DNA from: Nitrospirota bacterium
GTDB lineage: Bacteria > Nitrospirota > Thermodesulfovibrionia > Thermodesulfovibrionales > UBA9159
Direction of reading: 5' to 3'
DNA: 60,895 bases
Assembly: GCA_021790195.1 (NCBI GenBank)
Contig: JAJYIF010000021.1
Location: 1-60,895, forward strand
This document shows, one piece after another, positions 7,371 through 18,097 of the stretch; the first letter of the stretch is position 1, and each line of letters opens with the position of its first letter. Made by a program: the position numbers and the translations under genes. The notes beneath the pieces were generated by a model. That model was not told the origin of the DNA. It ran no database searches and worked only from the letters and a program-made list of their open reading frames with translations.

Positions 7371-8270
7371 CTACTGATTTAAAAGGCTTTTTGTGGGGTA
7401 AAGCTGCGCCTGGGGCTGCTCCGCTTCCGAGATGATCTCCCAGCACTCCGGGCATGAGATGAGCTTCTTTATGAACTTCAGGTTCGTAGAATGCCCTGCC
7501 CTGTCGGCAAGGATATGTCCGAACACCGGAAAGCCGATCAAGGAGAAGTCGCCTATGGAATCCAGTATCTTGTGCCTCACGAATTCGTCCTTGAACCTGA
7601 GGCCGGTAGAGTTCAGTATCCCGTTGTCTCCCAGAATTATGGCATTGTTCAGAGAACCGCCTTTCGCGAGGCCGTTCGCCATCATATACTGGACGTCCTT
7701 GAGGAAACCGAAAGTCCTCGCCGGCGCCACTTCCTTTATAAAGGTCTCCTCATCGAGTTCTATACTCAAATTCTGCTCGCCGAGGAGATTGTGGTTGAAA
7801 TGTATCCTGTAGGTGATCTTTCTTCCCTCATAGGGGAAGACCGCTATCTCGGAGTGGCCGTCGTCCATGATAACGGGTTTAACAATCCTCATGTACGGCA
7901 TCCTCTTGCCCTGTTTCGCGATCCCGCCTTTCAGGATAATGCTGACAAGCTCGGTGGAACTGCCATCGAGAATCGGTATCTCCGGACCGTCAACCTCAAT
8001 GATCAGATTGTCAATCCCGATGCCGGCAAGGGCTGCAAGGATGTGCTCGACCGTCCTTATCTTCACCCCTTCGTTCCCAAGCGTCGTGGCAAAGGCAGTG
8101 TCGGTGACGGCGCCGGCATGGGCCCTTATGACGGCCGGCCGGTCCATCCTGTGAAAGATAATGCCGGAGTCGCGCGGGGCAGGTCTCAGCCTTACGGTCG
8201 CATTCCTGCCGGTATGCAGGCCGATGCCGCTGAAGGTTACTTCATGTCTAAGCGTCCTTTGTAAGCGCAT
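7371..8270 (-). CDS. lpxC: UDP-3-O-acyl-N-acetylglucosamine deacetylase
   Basis: A 299-residue zinc amidase that catalyses the first committed step of lipid A synthesis in the cytoplasm. The protein starts RTLRHEVTFSGIGLHTG, as LpxC does. It has the zinc His of TVEHILAAL (about residue 78), the motif EVDGPEIPILDGSS, the segment HKILDSIGDFSLIG that supplies two further metal ligands (about 233-246), and GHSTN near the end that supplies the catalytic His. Length is normal. ATG 8270 is the natural start. It stands alone, without other lpx genes. The presence of lpxC shows that the organism has an LPS-bearing outer membrane. Confidence 0.95.
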   Translation of the reverse strand: MRLQRTLRHEVTFSGIGLHTGRNATVRLRPAPRDSGIIFHRMDRPAVIRAHAGAVTDTAFATTLGNEGVKIRTVEHILAALAGIGIDNLIIEVDGPEIPILDGSSTELVSIILKGGIAKQGKRMPYMRIVKPVIMDDGHSEIAVFPYEGRKITYRIHFNHNLLGEQNLSIELDEETFIKEVAPARTFGFLKDVQYMMANGLAKGGSLNNAIILGDNGILNSTGLRFKDEFVRHKILDSIGDFSLIGFPVFGHILADRAGHSTNLKFIKKLISCPECWEIISEAEQPQAQLYPTKSLLNQ

Positions 8271-8429
8271 AAAACTACAATTTTAGTTTGCAAAGAAGAT
8301 GCCAGATAATTATATTGAAAATAAAGACTTTTTATTCGAGGTGGTGTTGTTTATATTCTTCAACTGTATAATTATTGCAACACTCCCCGCAACCTCAAGG
8401 CCGGGCGAAACCTGCAAAAGCGACAGCGG

Positions 8430-9818
8430 CTAGGTCTTTATCTCGCCGCCGACCACCATCTCGCTGATCCTGAGCGTGGGCATGGCGTCCGACACAGGCA
8501 CACCCTGGGAATCCTTACCGCAGGTGCCGATCGAAAAGCCGAGATCGGATGCCACCATATCGATGGCCTTGATAACGTCCGGGCCGTTGCCGGTCAGAGT
8601 CGCTTCCCTCACCGGTTCCCCGACACTTCCGTTTTCGATCCTGTATCCTTCCTGCACTTCGAATACGAAGTCGCCCGTCACCGTATTGACCTGGCCGCCG
8701 CCCATCTTTCTGACGAGGAGCCCGCTATGAACCGATTTCAGGACCTCTTCGGGACTCGCGCTTCCCGGCGCGACAAAGGTATTGCTCATCCTCGGTATGG
8801 GTCTGCTCTGGTAAGATTCTCTGCGGCCGTTTCCGGTCGACCTCGTTCCATCGAGCATAGCGTCCAGTTTGTCATACATAAAGCCCTTCAGCACCCCTTT
8901 GTCCACTAATACCGTCCTTTGGGAAGGAGTGCCTTCGTCATCGCACCGGTAGGAGCCTCTCTTGTAAGGTAGCGTGGCATCGTCGATGACCGTCACAAGC
9001 TCCGAAGCGACCTGCTCCCCAAGCCTGCCGGAATAAACGGACAAACCGAGTCGCGCGAGGTCGGCCTCGAGGCCGTGCCCTATGGCTTCGTGTATCATCG
9101 TTCCCCCGGCTTCGGAAGATATGATCACCGGCATTCTGCCGGCCGGAGCCCTCTGGGCGCCAAGCATCATGACTGCACGCCCGGAAGCCTTAAGGGAAAG
9201 CTCTTCCGCCGACAGGTCGTCAAACAGCTCGAAGCCGATGTGGCCGCCCGCGGTTTCGTATCCGGTCTGGACCATACTCTTATCAGAGGCAATAACATGC
9301 ACCGCAAAAAAGGTGTGAGTGCGCTCATCTTCAATAAGGGTGCCCTCGGAAGTGGCAATCAGGACTTTCTGGAAAGAATCACGATAACTTGCCGAAACCT
9401 GTCTGATTCGTCCGTCAAAAGACCGCGCCGTCCGGTCTGCCTCTTTCGCGAGTCCTATCTTTCTCGACACGGGGATATCCCCAGCGGGCATCTTGATGCG
9501 GAAATCCGTCCTGGTCTTTCCTTTTTTGAGATCGAGCACAAGATCGCGGGTTGCTCCGCTTGCAGCGTCAGTGAGAGTCCCTGCTATCTCCATCAAGGCG
9601 CCTGCGGAGAGGTCGTTGCCGTAGGCATAGAAAGTCTTCCCCTTTGATATAAGCCTTATTCCAACCCCGCTGTATGCTCCGGTAACGACCTTTTCTACCT
9701 TTTCATCTTCCAGATGTATAAAGGTCGTCTTCTTATTCTCCACGAAGACGTCGGCATAATCAGCGCCTCGCAACATTGTCTTGCGCAAGACTTCCGACAG
9801 CAGCATTTTATCGAGCAT
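8430..9818 (-). CDS. tldD: Metalloprotease TldD
   Basis: A 462-residue protein of the TldD/PmbA family. It carries the metalloprotease motif HEAIGHGLEAD (HExxxH, about residue 243), the upstream segment MPVIISSEAGGTMI and the C-terminal GNGPDVIKAIDMVASDLGF characteristic of TldD. With its partner TldE (PmbA), absent from this window, it forms a heterodimer that degrades unfolded or modified peptides, for example microcin B17 precursor or the CcdA antitoxin in E. coli. The ATG start at 9818 gives a family-standard N-terminus. A TATAAT on this strand (complement of 9870-9875) may serve as its -10 box, in the region shared with the divergent mtnP. Confidence 0.93.
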   Translation of the reverse strand: MLDKMLLSEVLRKTMLRGADYADVFVENKKTTFIHLEDEKVEKVVTGAYSGVGIRLISKGKTFYAYGNDLSAGALMEIAGTLTDAASGATRDLVLDLKKGKTRTDFRIKMPAGDIPVSRKIGLAKEADRTARSFDGRIRQVSASYRDSFQKVLIATSEGTLIEDERTHTFFAVHVIASDKSMVQTGYETAGGHIGFELFDDLSAEELSLKASGRAVMMLGAQRAPAGRMPVIISSEAGGTMIHEAIGHGLEADLARLGLSVYSGRLGEQVASELVTVIDDATLPYKRGSYRCDDEGTPSQRTVLVDKGVLKGFMYDKLDAMLDGTRSTGNGRRESYQSRPIPRMSNTFVAPGSASPEEVLKSVHSGLLVRKMGGGQVNTVTGDFVFEVQEGYRIENGSVGEPVREATLTGNGPDVIKAIDMVASDLGFSIGTCGKDSQGVPVSDAMPTLRISEMVVGGEIKT

Positions 9819-10757: not shown

Positions 10758-11504
10758 TTAAAATATTGTCATTATTCCAATGGGGTTCGGTGAATGCCGC
10801 CGGTACCCCTTGCCCTGTGCCAGTATGTCCAGAGGTATGCTGATAATGTCGATAAGTTCGGGCGAATAGCTTTCAAGAAGGCCGGCGTTTACGGTCTTAA
10901 CGTAGCTCCCGCATTCGTTGCAGAGATCTATGCGGAAGCCCGTTTCCTCTTCTATTTCGTTGATTTCGAGCCCGCGAGGGCCTCTGTTTTGGCAGTTCGG
11001 ACATCCTATCCTTTGCCACTGTCCTGAAAAACCGCAATAGGAGCAAAAGAGGGTCCTTCCGCTGTCCTGATGAAGAAAGGCAAGAGAAGGCCGGGCTTTA
11101 CAGACTGGGCACCGACCCTCCGGCCGGAAAGCAGTGTCTACCCTGAGAGAATTCCTGAGTGATACGAAGAAGGGTTTTCCAATCATGAATAGAATGGTCT
11201 GAAGCTCATCTTCATGATACGGAAGCGAAAAAGCGGGTGTCTCATTCATCGGAAGTCTTGTGAAGTCGATCCTGCCGAGCTTCACGGCCTCTTTCAGCGG
11301 CGATAGGAAATCCTCCGGTATATCGAAGGCCGAGGTGAATGATTCGAAAACCGTATCCACTGATTCGGGACTATAAGCAGCGGCCCCGGCTTCAAAAAGG
11401 CTCGTATGCTGAACCAGCCCTTCAAACGTCTTCATCTTTTTGAAAAGGCCGAGGGCTTCCTGCAAATGCGGCCTGCTTTCAGCGATCTCTTCTATGGTCG
11501 TCAT
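10758..11504 (-). CDS. fdhE: Formate dehydrogenase accessory protein FdhE
   Basis: A 248-residue cytoplasmic chaperone needed for activity of respiratory formate dehydrogenases; FdhE binds the catalytic subunit before export. The C-terminal half is a rubredoxin-like domain with four Cys pairs: CPVCKA, CSYCGF, CPNCQN and CNECGS, all intact. The N-terminal half is helical. Position is consistent: it is the last gene of the operon that begins with fdnG, with a 4-bp gap after the diheme peroxidase gene. GTG/ATG choice is clear, MTTIEEIAESRPHLQE at 11504. Confidence 0.88.
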   Translation of the reverse strand: MTTIEEIAESRPHLQEALGLFKKMKTFEGLVQHTSLFEAGAAAYSPESVDTVFESFTSAFDIPEDFLSPLKEAVKLGRIDFTRLPMNETPAFSLPYHEDELQTILFMIGKPFFVSLRNSLRVDTAFRPEGRCPVCKARPSLAFLHQDSGRTLFCSYCGFSGQWQRIGCPNCQNRGPRGLEINEIEEETGFRIDLCNECGSYVKTVNAGLLESYSPELIDIISIPLDILAQGKGYRRHSPNPIGIMTIF

Positions 11505-11508
11505 AGGA

Positions 11509-12606
11509 CTAAGGGACCTCCGGATATTTTATGACTATTTCCTTTCCCGTCAGTGCCTCTGTGAGGAAAGTCTTCAGGTTTTTCTTCTCCTCCGGGGTCA
11601 GGTTCAACGGTCTCAGGACTTTATTGCCACTTCCTCCGCCCTCGTCGAAGAAGTCTATGACCTCATCGAGGGTCTTGAAGACCCCGTTGTGCATATAAGG
11701 AGCTGTCTTCGATATCTCTCTCAGCGTCGGCGTTCTGAAGGCCTTCCAGTCAGCTCTCTTCTTGGTTATAAGAAACCTGCCTGGGTCCTCCTTCAGATTC
11801 TTATAGTCGGCATAATGATAGACCTTTGCCACAAACCTCATCGTAGCTGTGACCCTCGGGTCATTCAGCAGGACAGGATTCTCCGGGACATTCAGTGCAT
11901 AAAACCTGTCGTCCGAGAGATTGACTCCGTTATGGCAGTCCGCGCACTTTCCTTTTCCCTCAAAAATCCTGTATCCCTTCGCAGCCCCCTCCGAAAGGGC
12001 GCTCGTGTCGCCTGTAAGATACCTGTCCAGGGGAGAATCAAAGGAAATCAAGGTCCTTTCAAAGGCGGCGATCGCCATAGCGATACGTTCCTTCGTGACA
12101 TCTCCGCCGAAAACCCTTCTGAAGGAATCGGCGTACTCGGGGACCACCCTGATCTGCTCCTCAAGATAAGCGAGGTTCTTGTTCATTTCGAAGGCGGACA
12201 TCATCGGGAAGAGCGCCTGGTCCTCCAGAGTACTTGCACGGCCGTCATAGAAGAAAGACTTGTGAAAGGCAACGTTGATCAGTGTCGGGGAATTCCGCCA
12301 ATTCTTTGTCGTGGGATAACTCAGGGATATGTCGAGGCCGTCTGTAAACGCCTGCTCAGGGTTATGGCATGTGGCGCAGCTCATAGTCCCGTCACCGGAA
12401 AGGCGGCGGTCAAAGAAGAGTTTCTTGCCGAGCTCGACCTTTTCCGGCGTCTGAGGGTTCGCCGGAGGGATCGGGACTGATTTGAAAGGCTCCAGATGAG
12501 AGGCATAAGAGGCAGGAACAAAAGCCAAGGTCAAGACTAAGGTCAAGACTAAAATCGAGCTTCTCAGCCTCAACCTCCGCCTGTCATTCTTTCTATCTCT
12601 TTGCAT
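11509..12606 (-). CDS. Diheme cytochrome c peroxidase (CcpA/MauG family)
   Basis: A 365-residue periplasmic protein with a signal peptide (LVLTLVLTLAFVPASYASH) whose hydrophobic core is encoded by a short tandem DNA repeat. It has two heme c binding motifs, CATCH (about residue 78) and CADCH (about 223), and the methionine-bearing YMHNGVFKTLDEVIDFF near the C-terminus, typical of bacterial cytochrome c peroxidases that reduce H2O2 to water. MauG-type oxidases share the fold. It overlaps the end of the selenoprotein gene by 14 bp, and GAGGAG inside that gene is its ribosome binding site, so expression is coupled to the formate dehydrogenase operon. It may protect the oxygen-sensitive selenoproteins from peroxide. 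Confidence 0.9.
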   Translation of the reverse strand: MQRDRKNDRRRLRLRSSILVLTLVLTLAFVPASYASHLEPFKSVPIPPANPQTPEKVELGKKLFFDRRLSGDGTMSCATCHNPEQAFTDGLDISLSYPTTKNWRNSPTLINVAFHKSFFYDGRASTLEDQALFPMMSAFEMNKNLAYLEEQIRVVPEYADSFRRVFGGDVTKERIAMAIAAFERTLISFDSPLDRYLTGDTSALSEGAAKGYRIFEGKGKCADCHNGVNLSDDRFYALNVPENPVLLNDPRVTATMRFVAKVYHYADYKNLKEDPGRFLITKKRADWKAFRTPTLREISKTAPYMHNGVFKTLDEVIDFFDEGGGSGNKVLRPLNLTPEEKKNLKTFLTEALTGKEIVIKYPEVP

Positions 12607-13261
12607 TTTTCAACTCCTCATCAATGATTTCCTTGAAATAATCAAACGGTCTGTTTCCGATCACCTTTCTCCCATTGATAAAGAAGGTCGGTGTATTATA
12701 CAGGTCAAGGTCCACGGCGAGCTTCTTGTCCCTTTCTATTTCGGAAGAATGTTTCATCCTGTCGATTGAATCCGTGAACCTCTTTACGTCCAAACCTAAT
12801 TCCTGCGCGTAGCGGATAAGGTTTGCCCGGTCGAGCTGCGGAGATTTCCTGAGCAGGAGATCGTGCATCTCCCAGAATTTGCCCTGGTCCCTCGCCGCAA
12901 GCGACGCCTCCGCCGCAATGTGCGAAAAGTCGCGGTACTTGTAAGGATAGTTCTTGATAATGAGACGGATCTTTCCTTTGTAAAGCTTCAAAATCTTCTT
13001 GACGGTCGGACCGACCCCAACGCAGTGCGGTCACTGATAGTCGAGAAACTCGATAATAGTAACCGGAGCATTTGCCGGTCCATAGGCCGGAGAATCGCCG
13101 ATAGGCACGTTGTATCTTTTTTCGTTGTCTGTGGAATATGATAGAGCCGGGAAGGCCACAAAGACGAAGACCAGCCACAGGGACACCGAGGCACGGCGGA
13201 AATAGAAGGGAACATGGAAAGCGGACGAGAAAAATTCCTGTCTCTTATTTCTTATCCTCAT
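12593..13261 (-). CDS. Selenocysteine-containing DsbA-like thioredoxin-fold protein (UPHC active site)
   Basis: A 222-residue exported thiol-disulfide oxidoreductase, split by an in-frame TGA at 13033-13031 that I read as selenocysteine (residue 77). Before it stands VTIIEFLDYQ, after it PHCVGVGPTVKK, so the TGA takes exactly the place of the first Cys of the CPHC motif of DsbA/thioredoxin_4 proteins. Downstream the frame continues with the DsbA helical insert (FSHIAAEASLAARDQGKFWEMHDLL) and the cis-Pro loop NTPTFFINGRKVIG. The N-terminus is a signal peptide (SLWLVFVFVAFPALSYS). The ATG at 13261 lies inside a small inverted-repeat element, and the in-frame GTG before SLWLVF is an alternative start. 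A hairpin fitting the bacterial SECIS position follows the UGA. It lies between fdnI and the peroxidase gene. Confidence 0.88.
13004..13016 (-). promoter_or_regulatory. Candidate SECIS hairpin of the DsbA-like selenoprotein
   Basis: In the mRNA, GGUCG-GUC-CGACC forms a 5-bp stem with a three-base loop beginning with G. The loop starts 20 bases after the UGA, within the 16-37 base distance known for bacterial SECIS elements. Confidence 0.65.
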
Positions 13262-13313: not shown

Positions 13314-13925
13314 CTATACCCCTATCTTCTGCACCCACTTCTGGTGTCTCTTCCTCGCCCATTCGAGAGGTACCGTGCCGTAAACCATGATCCTGAACGT
13401 GCCGGGATTGGCAAGTGTCGCCAGGTATATGTGGGCGGGGATGGCGAAGACGAGCAGGTCAAAACAGATGTTATGGATCAAATGCGAAATAAGCACAAGC
13501 CTCGTTATGTCGGAGGAGGCCGGTCTGAGCCATATGACAAGGCCGGAGGCGGATATCGCAATCCCTGCCACGAGGACCACAAGGTAATACAGTTTCTGAC
13601 CTGCATTCAGCTCGTCCTGCGGAGGCGCCTTAACCCTCCTTGATAAATACCCACCGGCCTTCGAGAACCATTCCATGTCATCGGAAGTGAAGCGGAGAGA
13701 CACGGAAAGATAATGGACTATGGTCAACACGAGCGAGACAATGAACACGACACCGGCCCAGTTGTGCCAGACCTTCATAGTATTGAAGCTTCCGAAAACT
13801 GAATTCAATTGTTCGAGCTGGAACAGGAAGCCGAAGCCGCTTACAGCCAGTACGAAAAAGCTTCCCGCGAGGACCCAGTGGTTCACTATCTCAAAGGCGT
13901 TTGCCTTCCTCACCATCTTATTCAT
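13314..13925 (-). CDS. fdnI: Formate dehydrogenase cytochrome b subunit (gamma)
   Basis: A 203-residue membrane protein with four transmembrane helices, of the FdnI/cytochrome b556 type. It starts VRKANAFEIVNHWVLAGSFFVLAVSG, with a heme-ligand His in the first helix, followed by VWHNWAGVVFIVSLVLTIVHYL, the third helix LYYLVVLVAGIAISASGLVI and the fourth segment SHLIHNICFDLLVFAIPAHIYL with further His ligands. It anchors the dehydrogenase in the membrane and passes electrons from the FeS subunit to quinone. It overlaps fdnH by 8 bp. An inverted-repeat element separates it from the downstream selenoprotein gene. Confidence 0.9.
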   Translation of the reverse strand: MNKMVRKANAFEIVNHWVLAGSFFVLAVSGFGFLFQLEQLNSVFGSFNTMKVWHNWAGVVFIVSLVLTIVHYLSVSLRFTSDDMEWFSKAGGYLSRRVKAPPQDELNAGQKLYYLVVLVAGIAISASGLVIWLRPASSDITRLVLISHLIHNICFDLLVFAIPAHIYLATLANPGTFRIMVYGTVPLEWARKRHQKWVQKIGV

Positions 13926-14688
13926 CTTTCTTCACCTCCTCGTCCTTCTTGGGACCAAAGGCGACATAATGAAGGACTGCTGCCGCTACCGCGCCTCCAA
14001 GGCCTATATAGGCAAGAGGCTTCAACACCTTATGCCAGAAGACGACCGATTCCGGGATCGCCGGTTTTTCGCTCATGCCGTAAAGTTTCGGGGGATCTAT
14101 AAAGGCATATAGCGCCCCAAGACCGTCAAGGTCCGCCTCTCCGTAAACCTTACCATATCCCTCCTTCTTCGCCATCCCTATGAGCGCGTCCCTTTCTCCA
14201 TAGCGAATGGCCCCGGTGGGGCAGGTCTTTGCGCACGCAGGCAGAAGTCCCTCCGAGGTTCTGTCATAACAGAGATGACATTTGGATATCTTGTCCTTGT
14301 CGTCATACCTCGGCACGTCAAAGGGGCAGCCTGCTACGCAGAGCTTGCAGCCGATACACTTTTCCTTGTTGAAAGCCACAGCTCCCTCTTTTGTCCTGAA
14401 AAGCGCACCCGGAGCGGGACAGATCTTTATGCATCCCGCATCGCCGCAATGCATGCACCTCTGGCTCACAAAGAGCCATCGCACCATATCAGCTTCCGTA
14501 GCCGTTTCGATATATCTTATCCTGTTATAAAGGTATGGCGTGAGGTCCGGGGGATTCTCCACGGTCCCCCTGTTCACTGTCTTTGTGCCTGGAAGATGGT
14601 TCCATTCCTTGCACGCTGTCTGGCAGCCCCTGCATCCAATGCATCTCTCCGGTGAAATAAGTAAAGCCTTTCTTGCCATTGTCTTCAC
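13918..14688 (-). CDS. fdnH: Formate dehydrogenase iron-sulfur subunit (beta)
   Basis: A 256-residue protein with four [4Fe-4S] clusters, the electron wire between the catalytic subunit and cytochrome b. The Cys motifs are CIGCRGCQTACKEW (about residue 16), CMHCGDAGCIKICPAPG, CIGCKLCVAGCPFDVP and CHLCYDRTSEGLLPACAKTCPTG. A single C-terminal transmembrane helix (PLAYIGLGGAVAAAVLHYVAF) anchors it, as in FdnH. It lies 4 bp after fdnG, has a GAGG ribosome binding site and overlaps fdnI, so the three subunits are made together. Confidence 0.95.
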   Translation of the reverse strand: MKTMARKALLISPERCIGCRGCQTACKEWNHLPGTKTVNRGTVENPPDLTPYLYNRIRYIETATEADMVRWLFVSQRCMHCGDAGCIKICPAPGALFRTKEGAVAFNKEKCIGCKLCVAGCPFDVPRYDDKDKISKCHLCYDRTSEGLLPACAKTCPTGAIRYGERDALIGMAKKEGYGKVYGEADLDGLGALYAFIDPPKLYGMSEKPAIPESVVFWHKVLKPLAYIGLGGAVAAAVLHYVAFGPKKDEEVKKDE

Positions 14689-14692
14689 CTCC

Positions 14693-17600
14693 TCAGGCCT
14701 TTTCTACATTGACCATAAAGGCCTTGGATTCAGGTATCATCGTGTTTGCGTCGCCGATAGTGGGCGTAAGGAGATTGGAGCTGTCTCCGCTGCTCCCGTC
14801 CTCGGGATATTGCCAGCCGAAGCACCACGGCATCCCCACCTGGTGTATCGTGGAATTTGCGACCCTGAACGGCTTGAACCTTTCCGTCACTATCGCAATC
14901 GCCCAAAGCTTTCCCCGGCCCGAGGACACAATGACCTTGTCGCCGTCCTTTATCCCCTTTTCTTTTGCAAGCTCCTTGCTCATCTCGATGAACATCTGCG
15001 GCTGCATCTCCAGCTGCCAAGGCTCGTGTCTCGTGAGGACGCCGGTCTGCCAGTGTTCTGAGACCCGATAGGTCGTTGCCACGAATGGATATCTCACATC
15101 GCAGGAATAATAAACGTCCTCGGCAGCCCCGCTCGACTTGTCGTAAAAAAGCTTGATTGTGGGATTGATCCTCTGTTTGGACATAAGGTTCTCCTGCAGC
15201 GGACATTCAAGAGCTTCGTAGTGCTCAGGGAAAGGACCCTCTGCAAGACCCGGTCCGAATATGCCGCCCATTCCCGTTGCCATCATGATAAAGGGATACT
15301 TCCCGCCTTCCATAGCCATCGGAGGCGCAGGTCCATCAGGCACGTCTCCTTCCCATACTCCCGGCTTCTTTGTGTTGGGGTCCGGCTTGGTGGGATTCCA
15401 TTTGATGACCGCGCGTTTGGAGTCCCAGGGCCTTCCCTGAGGGTCGACCGAGGCCCGGTTGTAGATTATCCTTCTGTTTACGGGCCAGGCCCAGGCCCAC
15501 CCGGAGAAGAGCCCCAATCCTGTGGGATCGTTCTTGCCCCTCCGGGACATCATGTTTGTCTTTTTGCCGTCTTTCTGGGTGTAGCTTCCGCTGAATATCC
15601 AGTTGCCGCAGGACGTTGTCCCGTCGGCCTGCAGGGTAACGAAATTCGTGCAGAGCGTTCCCCTCTTGCCGAGCTGTTTAGGAGGGGTGGCCTTGCTATC
15701 GAAAATGTCTTCCAGATAAGATCCGTTGATTTCTTCAGCGACGCGATGGATATCGACTTTCCTGACCTTGCCGTCGGGTCCTTTTTCCCCGTAATCCCAT
15801 GTCAGGTTCAGTATGGGGGCCGGAGTCTTTCCTCCCTGCTTCTGATAGAGTCTTCTGACCCTGAAATAAAGCTCGTTCATTATGTCCGAGTCAGGTTTTG
15901 ACTGGCCCATCGGCTCAATAGCAGCTGTGCGCCATTGAGCCAGCCTTCCGGAGTTCGTAATGCTTCCTTCTTTTTCCACGGAAGAGCAGGCGGGAAGGAA
16001 AAACACCTCCGTCTGTATGTCCTTAGGGTTCATCCCGGGCCCCTTCCAGAAAGAGCCTGTCTCGTTGTCAAAAAGGTTTACGTTTACCATCCACTTCAGC
16101 TTTGCAAGCGCCTTTCTCACCTTGTTCGCATTGGCCCCCGAACAGGCCGGGTTCTGGCCCCAGGCAAAAAACCCCTCGAACTTGCCCTTGAACATCTGGT
16201 CGAAAAGCATGAGCCAAGAACAGTTCATGCCCTCGTCGAGCTTGGGCAGCCAAGCATACCCGAAGTCATTGTCTTTGGTTGCCTTAGTCCCGTAAATCGC
16301 CTTGAGGTAGCTCGTGATATACTTGGGCCTGTTCCCCCACCAATTTACGCTCTTCGGGTTCTTTGTCTTGGGCGTAAATTTCTCGTTGTATGTCTTTAGA
16401 TCGGGGATTGTTGCGGTCGGAGCAGGAAGATAACCGGGCAGTATATTAAACAGAAGACCGTGGTCGGTGGAGCCCTGCACGTTGGACTCGCCCCTCAGGG
16501 CATTGATGCCTCCTCCGGCTATGCCTATGTTGCCGAGGAGGAGCTGGATTATGCACATCGCCCTTATATTCTGGGTCCCGATAGTATGCTGGGTCCAGCC
16601 CATGGCATAAAGCTCGGTGCCTGACCTGTTCGGTTTACCGGTGCTTGCATAAAGCCCGTAGATTTCGAGGAGTTTTTCCTTCGGCGTCCCCGTAATGTCC
16701 GAGACCTTATCGAGCGTGTAGCGTGCGTATTGTTTCCTGAGAAGCTGGAATACGCAATTGGGGTCTTTCATCGACGGGTCCTTCTTGGGCAGGCCGTTTT
16801 CGTCCGTCTGGAAGGACCAGGTCTTCTTGTCGTACTTTCTTCCCTTCTCATCGTATCCCGAAAAAAGGCCGTCAAGCTGCCAAGGTCCCTTGAATTCGGG
16901 ATTGACGAGGAAAGTGGCATTCGTATATTCCGAGACATATTGTCTGAAATAGAGATTGTTGTCGAGGATGTGCTTGATCATGCCGCCCAGGAATGCGATG
17001 TCCGTCCCCGAGCGCATCGGAGCATACACGTCCGCCTTTGCCGCGGTCCGCGTAAAGCGCGGGTCCACGACGATGAACTTAGCGCCGTTTTCCCTCGCCC
17101 GCGCTATCCATTTCATTGAGATTGGATGGTTCTCCGCAGGGTTTGCGCCCATCACAAGGATGACATCAGCGTTCTTTATGTCGATCCAGTGGTTTGTCAT
17201 TGCGCCGCGTCCGAACGACTCTGCCAGAGCCGCTACAGTTGCGGAGTGTCATATTCGCGCCTGGTGCTCTATATAAACGAGTCCCCAGGATCGGAGGAGT
17301 TTTTGGAGCATGTAGCACTCCTCGTTGTCGAGGGCCGCGCTTCCGACGTGTGCTATGCCGTCCGTCCTGTTTACTACAAACTCCTTTTCGGCCTCAACCT
17401 CTTTTCCGTCCGGCCCTTTTCCCTTGACCTTGGATTTGGTGCTTATCTTGAAGGTCTTATCGCGGGTCTGCTTGACCCTCTTTGCGATCTCATCCAGGGC
17501 CCAGTCCCATTCGACTTCCTGCCATTCCCCTGCGCCGGGGGCGCGATATCGGGGCTTCATGACCCTTGTCGGGTTGTTGATGATCTGGAATAGAGAGGCG

Positions 17601-17854
17601 CCCTTTGAACAGAGAGTGCCCTCACTGATGGGATGATCGGGGTCTCCCTCCGCGTTTATGACCTTTCCGTCAGAGGCATGCACGATGATACCGCAGCCGA
17701 CCGAACAGTAAGGACAGATGGTGGAGGATTCTTTTGCGTTCTTGATGCGGAGCGTTTGTGCATATGACCTGGCGGGGGCCAGATCGATACTCAGGGAGCT
17801 CAACAGCAATGATCCTCCGGAAAGCTTCAGGAAGTTGCGTCGAGATACATTCAT
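14693..17854 (-). CDS. fdnG: Formate dehydrogenase catalytic subunit (selenocysteine, molybdopterin)
   Basis: A 1053-residue periplasmic enzyme that oxidises formate to CO2. An in-frame TGA at 17251-17249 encodes selenocysteine at residue 202: the flanks HQARI and HSATVAALAESFGRGAMTNH match the active site of E. coli FdnG, where Sec binds Mo or W. A twin-arginine signal (SRRNFLKLSGG) directs folded export. Next comes a [4Fe-4S] site, CPYCSVGCGIIVHASDGK with a later Cys in GTLCSKG, then the molybdopterin domains (VMGANPAENHP, GWTQHTIGTQNIRAMC) and the C-terminal MopB domain (THRVSEHWQTG-like YRVSEHWQTGVLTRHEPW). Length fits the family. A perfect-consensus promoter lies about 215 bp upstream. 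An ordinary gene caller will split this gene at the TGA. Confidence 0.95.
17216..17232 (-). promoter_or_regulatory. Candidate SECIS hairpin of fdnG
   Basis: In the mRNA, CGGCUCU-GGC-AGAGUCG forms a 7-bp stem (one G-U) with a G-starting three-base loop, 23 bases after the UGA. Confidence 0.7.
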
Positions 17855-18068: not shown

Positions 18069-18097
18069 ATTATAGAACTACGGAATGGGAGTGTCAA
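18069..18097 (-). promoter_or_regulatory. Perfect-consensus sigma-70 promoter of the fdn operon
   Basis: Reading leftward: TTGACA (complement of 18092-18097), a 17-bp spacer, TATAAT (complement of 18069-18074). The expected start is near 18062, giving a leader of about 208 bases before fdnG. Confidence 0.8.

Follow-up and report, generated by a model that had tools for sequence, protein, structure and literature searches.

Selenocysteine-containing DsbA-like and DsbG-like proteins figure on published lists, one for the Sargasso Sea (PMC1088965) and others in PMC1794560, PMC5029168 and PMC13188914. As described there, the surveyed DsbA-like members (PF01323/COG2761) have a DsbA-type thioredoxin fold with a UxxC active site, and a bacterial SECIS whose small apical loop contains a G. 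These features are shared by the gene here called dsbU, which lies beside formate dehydrogenase genes in a 60,895-nucleotide stretch of DNA from a Nitrospirota bacterium (contig JAJYIF010000021.1; this whole stretch is the window). The overall reading, to which a probability of about 0.85 is attached, is that dsbU would be decoded with selenocysteine to give a protein of periplasmic redox function, and would belong with a di-haem protein of the cytochrome c peroxidase (CCP) family to a formate dehydrogenase unit.

dsbU occupies 12593-13261 of the minus strand. When TGA is translated as U this interval is a single open frame of 222 residues with one recoded codon, U77 (minus strand, 13033-13031), in the context VTIIEFLDYQ-U-PHC, and the active site of the predicted DsbA/BdbD-type selenoprotein is U77-P-H-C80. 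Assignment of the in-frame UGA as Sec 77 is based on the presence of TGA in every close homologue. The coordinates and motif given by the sequence-only reading were thus correct on re-translation, and its claim of a DsbA-like protein with selenocysteine for the first active-site cysteine is supported. The start codon is uncertain (ATG 13261 or GTG at codon 26) and the N-terminus forms a hydrophobic helix, either a signal peptide or an anchor. Matches to Pfam Thioredoxin_4 (PF13462; 97 bits, E 1.4e-27) and DSBA (PF01323; 66 bits over a cut-off of 25.6, E 4e-18) cover the whole fold, and the part following the TGA scores clearly lower by itself, at just 64 and 48 bits, respectively. In the structure model (pLDDT 89) a DsbA-type fold is predicted, together with the N-terminal hydrophobic helix, and its best matches are BdbD (TM 0.83 by target) and other DsbA-type proteins. 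The thioredoxin fold, inserted helical domain, UxxC and cis-proline (in the motif NTPTFFING) of DsbA-type proteins are all found. Standard annotation would truncate such a gene at its UGA or overlook it.

A hairpin with a G-starting loop had been noted 20 bases past the UGA, and it is present as described, now with comparative support. The apical hairpin of the bacterial SECIS is at 13004-13016 (minus strand), GGUCG-GUC-CGACC, the loop G being 20 nts after the UGA. Folded alone, the sequence of this region gives no significant signal (z = +0.65), and the case for the hairpin comes from comparison between sequences. With the first base of the UGA counted as 0, a stem of five pairs (+17 to +21 with +25 to +29) is kept across 68 distinct sequences. 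Its two wobble-wobble pairs hold in every one of 136 cells, where 1000 synonymous-codon shuffles gave an expectation of 52 ± 5.7 with a maximum of 68. Four sequences have compensatory double changes (A-U in L039 and L088, U-A in L073, C-G in L077). The stem is imperfect in some, with a C-A mismatch at pair +19/+27 in 27 of the 68. Measured as entropy, synonymous variation drops at codons +5 to +9 to 0–15% of the expected value, against approximately 85% elsewhere. Together these comparisons argue strongly that an RNA element 3′ of the dsbU UGA is under selection. Its position and G-starting loop match bacterial SECIS elements (PMC1088965). In fdhG, the formate dehydrogenase gene of the window, a similar hairpin follows the TGA (z = −2.3).

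The conservation of the TGA itself is complete among close relatives. Read directly, the active-site codon is TGA in 85 of 85 close loci, which come from Nitrospirota, Desulfobulbaceae and Desulfocapsaceae and also from single MAGs labelled Deferribacterota, Actinomycetota and Deltaproteobacteria. A survey of 396 Nitrospirota genomes yielded 66 close DsbU homologues in 65 genomes, nearly all with the in-frame TGA; in G274 the gene is split between contigs, the N-terminal piece having the TGA and the C-terminal piece, on another contig, being without it. Chance or sequencing error is excluded because the TGA is conserved in all close relatives. In the maximum-likelihood tree 80 distinct UPHC rows form a single clade (support 99/98), all 80 with selenocysteine, and neither a cysteine form nor a reversion to cysteine was seen among them. 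Cysteine forms (CPFC/CPYC) fall outside this clade, outgroups mostly have cysteine at the aligned column, and a few other selenocysteine forms (UPFC) are scattered elsewhere in the tree. More distant DsbA-like genes with an in-frame TGA at the same position also lie outside the UPHC clade, in L136, L106, L116, L118 and L138; L136 (G058) has two of them, at 8054-8566 and 11234-11746, the active site is UPFC in L106, L116 and L118, and some of these distant genes are in tandem.

What decodes the UGA can be judged against the source genome (3.3 Mb, 96% complete). A selenocysteine decoding system had been predicted by the sequence-only reading, with selA, selB and selC as the check on it, and all three are in the genome: a tRNA with a UCA anticodon, called as tRNA-SeC, SelB (377 bits, cut-off 242) and SelA (615 bits). 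dsbU therefore has the features by which bacterial selenoprotein genes are recognised, namely a UGA aligned with cysteine, a conserved bacterial SECIS and selA, selB and selC in the same genome. Standard gene callers would end the gene at the TGA, and an ORF with a TTG start (12593-12991) lies 3′ of it, as a real stop or a sequencing error would have it, the gene then being a pseudogene or two separate proteins. That is hardly credible: the TGA is in every close homologue across several phyla, the SECIS covaries, the selenocysteine machinery is in the genome, and neither half would be a complete fold if the protein were divided at the active-site helix. Purifying selection is also evident on both sides of the TGA (against the nearest relative, 91% identical, dN is 0.04 on each side and dS 0.47–0.81). 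On the conserved TGA, the selection on both sides and the covarying SECIS, the pseudogene, sequencing-error and split-gene readings are rejected. Readthrough alone would likewise keep the frame open, so the UGA could in principle be read by a reassignment to tryptophan or by non-specific readthrough. However, the homologous residue in outgroups is cysteine and not tryptophan, TGA serves as the terminal stop codon in 15 of 52 dsbU homologues, and tRNA-Sec, SelA and SelB are present alongside a SECIS under selection; decoding as tryptophan is rejected on these grounds, and decoding otherwise than as selenocysteine has a negligible probability. Decoding of the UGA at 13033-13031 as selenocysteine through the SECIS, SelA, SelB and tRNA-Sec, to give an exported UPHC oxidoreductase, is almost certainly the correct prediction.

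The gene order on the minus strand is fdhG(Sec)-fdhH-fdhI-dsbU-ccp-fdhE, closely packed. fdhG (14693-17854) encodes the alpha subunit of formate dehydrogenase-N (TIGR01553, 1377 bits, cut-off 814) with its own selenocysteine codon, TGA 17251-17249, and so the earlier statement that the operon includes a selenocysteine formate dehydrogenase is confirmed. fdhH (13918-14688) encodes the iron-sulfur (4Fe-4S) subunit with a C-terminal transmembrane helix, and fdhI (13314-13925) the cytochrome b subunit (TIGR01583, 127.7 bits, cut-off 115.9). ccp (11509-12606) is of the di-haem c-type MauG/CCP family (CCP_MauG, 183.6 bits), and the fdhE-like accessory gene (10758-11504) matches FdhE_C. Approximately 215 bp upstream of fdhG, on the same strand, is a TTGACA-17-TATAAT match (18069-18097; 12/12), a possible operon promoter by its sigma-70-type consensus. 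In the window the ccp start overlaps the dsbU end by 14 nts. This overlap is common to many Nitrospirota loci, and gaps of a few bases mostly take its place in Desulfobulbales, though the comparison is rough as start codons were guessed.

Coupling to formate dehydrogenase, which the sequence-only reading had stressed, holds as a frequent neighbourhood and not as a constant one. Among 32 loci whose upstream flank reaches 7.5 kb or more, 31 have FdhG within 7 kb upstream of dsbU, and FdhE is downstream in 25 of 48 with enough flank; these loci were picked by similarity to the query. In the Nitrospirota survey FdhG is within 8 kb for 41 of 66 dsbU genes, and many of the others lie on broken contigs. 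The distance is 27 to 742 kb in four genus g10 genomes that have large contigs (G047, G052, G079, G168), and FdhGHI is unlinked from dsbU in f6/g10 genomes, G160, G290 and L086. Even where FdhGHI is unlinked, fdhE still follows dsbU-ccp at L132, where a MoeA-type gene is next, at L133, and at L137 and L140, both fragmented g10 loci; L131, L134, L135 and L086 have dsbU-ccp with neither FdhG nor FdhE close beside it, and in L134 and L135 no formate dehydrogenase gene of any kind accompanies the pair. The membrane subunit of the formate dehydrogenase is, in some loci (e.g. L080), an NrfD-type protein and not a cytochrome b.

The constant genetic partner of dsbU is the di-haem peroxidase gene downstream. 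ccp is directly 3′ of dsbU in 52 of 52 loci with enough flank (loci chosen by similarity to the query dsbU). In the Nitrospirota survey 62 of 66 dsbU genes adjoin a CCP gene, and 62 of 63 close CCP genes adjoin dsbU; at least one of the exceptions, G300, is at a contig end. In L139 (G217; 8540-9790) a tandem pair of dsbU genes of the UPHC clade comes after fdhGHI, and no CCP gene was found following it.

The ccp product has two haem motifs, CATCH and CADCH, and a conserved glutamate, E140, at the peroxidase active-site position. In the alignment of this protein with its homologues from 59 loci, the position of the MauG ligand Tyr294 is occupied by Phe, Leu or Ile, methionine is absent from the classic CCP ligand position, and the inter-haem tryptophan position is mostly His. 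Given the altered residues at ligand positions, the activity of the protein may differ from that of a standard peroxidase, and it is a possible new sub-type of the MauG/CCP family.

The mechanism envisaged starts with the SECIS hairpin just 3′ of the UGA, which would direct the ribosome to read it as selenocysteine and, with the SelA, SelB and tRNA-Sec of the genome, to synthesise an exported oxidoreductase of DsbA/BdbD fold with UPHC. What is known of the family makes selenol/thiol redox chemistry in the periplasm, with recycling at the membrane, quite probable. The selenol of DsbU would attack disulfides or oxidised sulfur, sulfenic or selenenic groups, Cys80 would resolve the intermediate to give a selenenylsulfide, and a membrane donor or acceptor would recycle the protein. 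The source genome has CcdA/DsbD-like and VKOR proteins. The VKOR domain, in L128 on contig C15, is part of an open frame of 358 residues, which may be a fusion, and is a candidate oxidase for DsbA-type proteins.

The peroxidase would be translated right after DsbU, and the two would make up a unit for maturing the Sec/Mo formate dehydrogenase-N or, alternatively, for shielding it from peroxide and from thiol or selenol oxidation at the periplasmic face. Gene order and co-occurrence suggest such a unit only tentatively, at somewhat less than even odds. FdhG is in 65 of 65 dsbU-bearing Nitrospirota genomes and in 117 of 396 overall, no dsbU was found in a surveyed genome without FdhG, and none in the at least 55 SelB-positive, FdhG-negative ones, though these counts ignore shared ancestry. 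Formate dehydrogenase does not require DsbU, because FdhG occurs without it in many genomes (at least 27). The fullest version, in which DsbU and the atypical di-haem protein are a dedicated selenium-dependent periplasmic system for maturation or repair of the Sec/Mo formate dehydrogenase and the peroxidase is translationally coupled to the UGA gene, is rather unlikely; if it were true, peroxidase synthesis would depend on selenium supply through that coupling.

The client of DsbU might instead be the di-haem protein itself, whose haem-binding cysteines would be kept reduced, or with whose peroxide substrate DsbU would react, the link to formate dehydrogenase then reflecting shared selenocysteine dependence or operon regulation. 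This is plausible though doubtful, and CCP as the main client ranks only slightly below service to formate dehydrogenase in likelihood: adjacency to ccp is more constant than adjacency to the formate dehydrogenase genes, the only cysteines of the CCP protein are those of its two CxxCH motifs, and the 14-nt overlap is frequent. Against it stand the absence of DsbU from the surveyed Nitrospirota genomes that lack FdhG, even SelB-positive ones, the fdhGHI-dsbU-dsbU arrangement without CCP in G217, and the accompaniment of dsbU-ccp by FdhE at loci where FdhGHI is elsewhere. That DsbU serves as a DsbA for general disulfide formation in the periplasm, in the operon by happenstance, is improbable. 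Its motif is of the CPHC type of E. coli DsbA and a VKOR is available in the genome, but most Nitrospirota genomes lack DsbU, the operon is fixed, and selenocysteine is never swapped for cysteine, unlike the case of a house-keeping oxidase; selenocysteine, moreover, usually favours reductive or peroxidatic chemistry. A DsbU-CCP unit serving formate dehydrogenase-N stays the tentative choice. Cultured carriers of dsbU (Desulfopila aestuarii DSM 18488 and Desulfofustis glycolicus DSM 9705) make the system experimentally approachable.

Among known proteins, the closest solved folds to DsbU are those of Bacillus subtilis BdbD and of other DsbA-type oxidoreductases (E 3e-12, 28% identity), which have cysteine where DsbU has selenocysteine. 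The DsbG-like/Rcas_1661 thioredoxin-like (seleno)lipoproteins of NF041057 share its Pfam family (PF13462) and a selenocysteine UxxC, but DsbU, with 92.4 bits where the cut-off is 190, falls outside that curated family, and for the UPHC clade no NCBIfam model scored above its own cut-off. From the surveyed selenocysteine DsbA-like proteins it differs in that Thioredoxin_4 (97 bits) is ahead of DSBA (66 bits) as its best Pfam match, and in belonging to a UPHC clade without cysteine forms. A fixed dsbU-ccp pair by a formate dehydrogenase-N operon goes unmentioned in the accessible parts of PMC1088965, PMC1794560, PMC5029168 and PMC13188914, and no paper tying a selenocysteine DsbA-like protein to formate dehydrogenase or to a di-haem peroxidase/MauG was found in the open-licence literature. 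The operon has the same upstream subunits and accessory protein as formate dehydrogenase-N (FdnGHI) with FdhE, its alpha subunit scoring over the TIGR01553 cut-off, and adds a selenocysteine DsbA and a di-haem peroxidase-family protein. The latter shares the two CxxCH haems and the active-site glutamate (E140) with MauG and the bacterial di-haem cytochrome c peroxidases; unlike MauG it belongs to a family with Phe, Leu or Ile at the Tyr294 position, and unlike classic CCP it lacks the methionine ligand in the alignment and mostly has His at the inter-haem tryptophan position. The findings suggest that the selenocysteine formate dehydrogenases of Nitrospirota and Desulfobulbales are accompanied by a partner system that includes a second selenoprotein and is undescribed in the literature found. 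Selenocysteine DsbA-like proteins as such were already known, and DsbU is a UPHC variant with a ccp/formate dehydrogenase context: a selenoprotein clade in which no cysteine form was found, with a SECIS backed by covariation and a link to formate respiration, both in Nitrospirota and in the sulfur-cycle Desulfobulbales.
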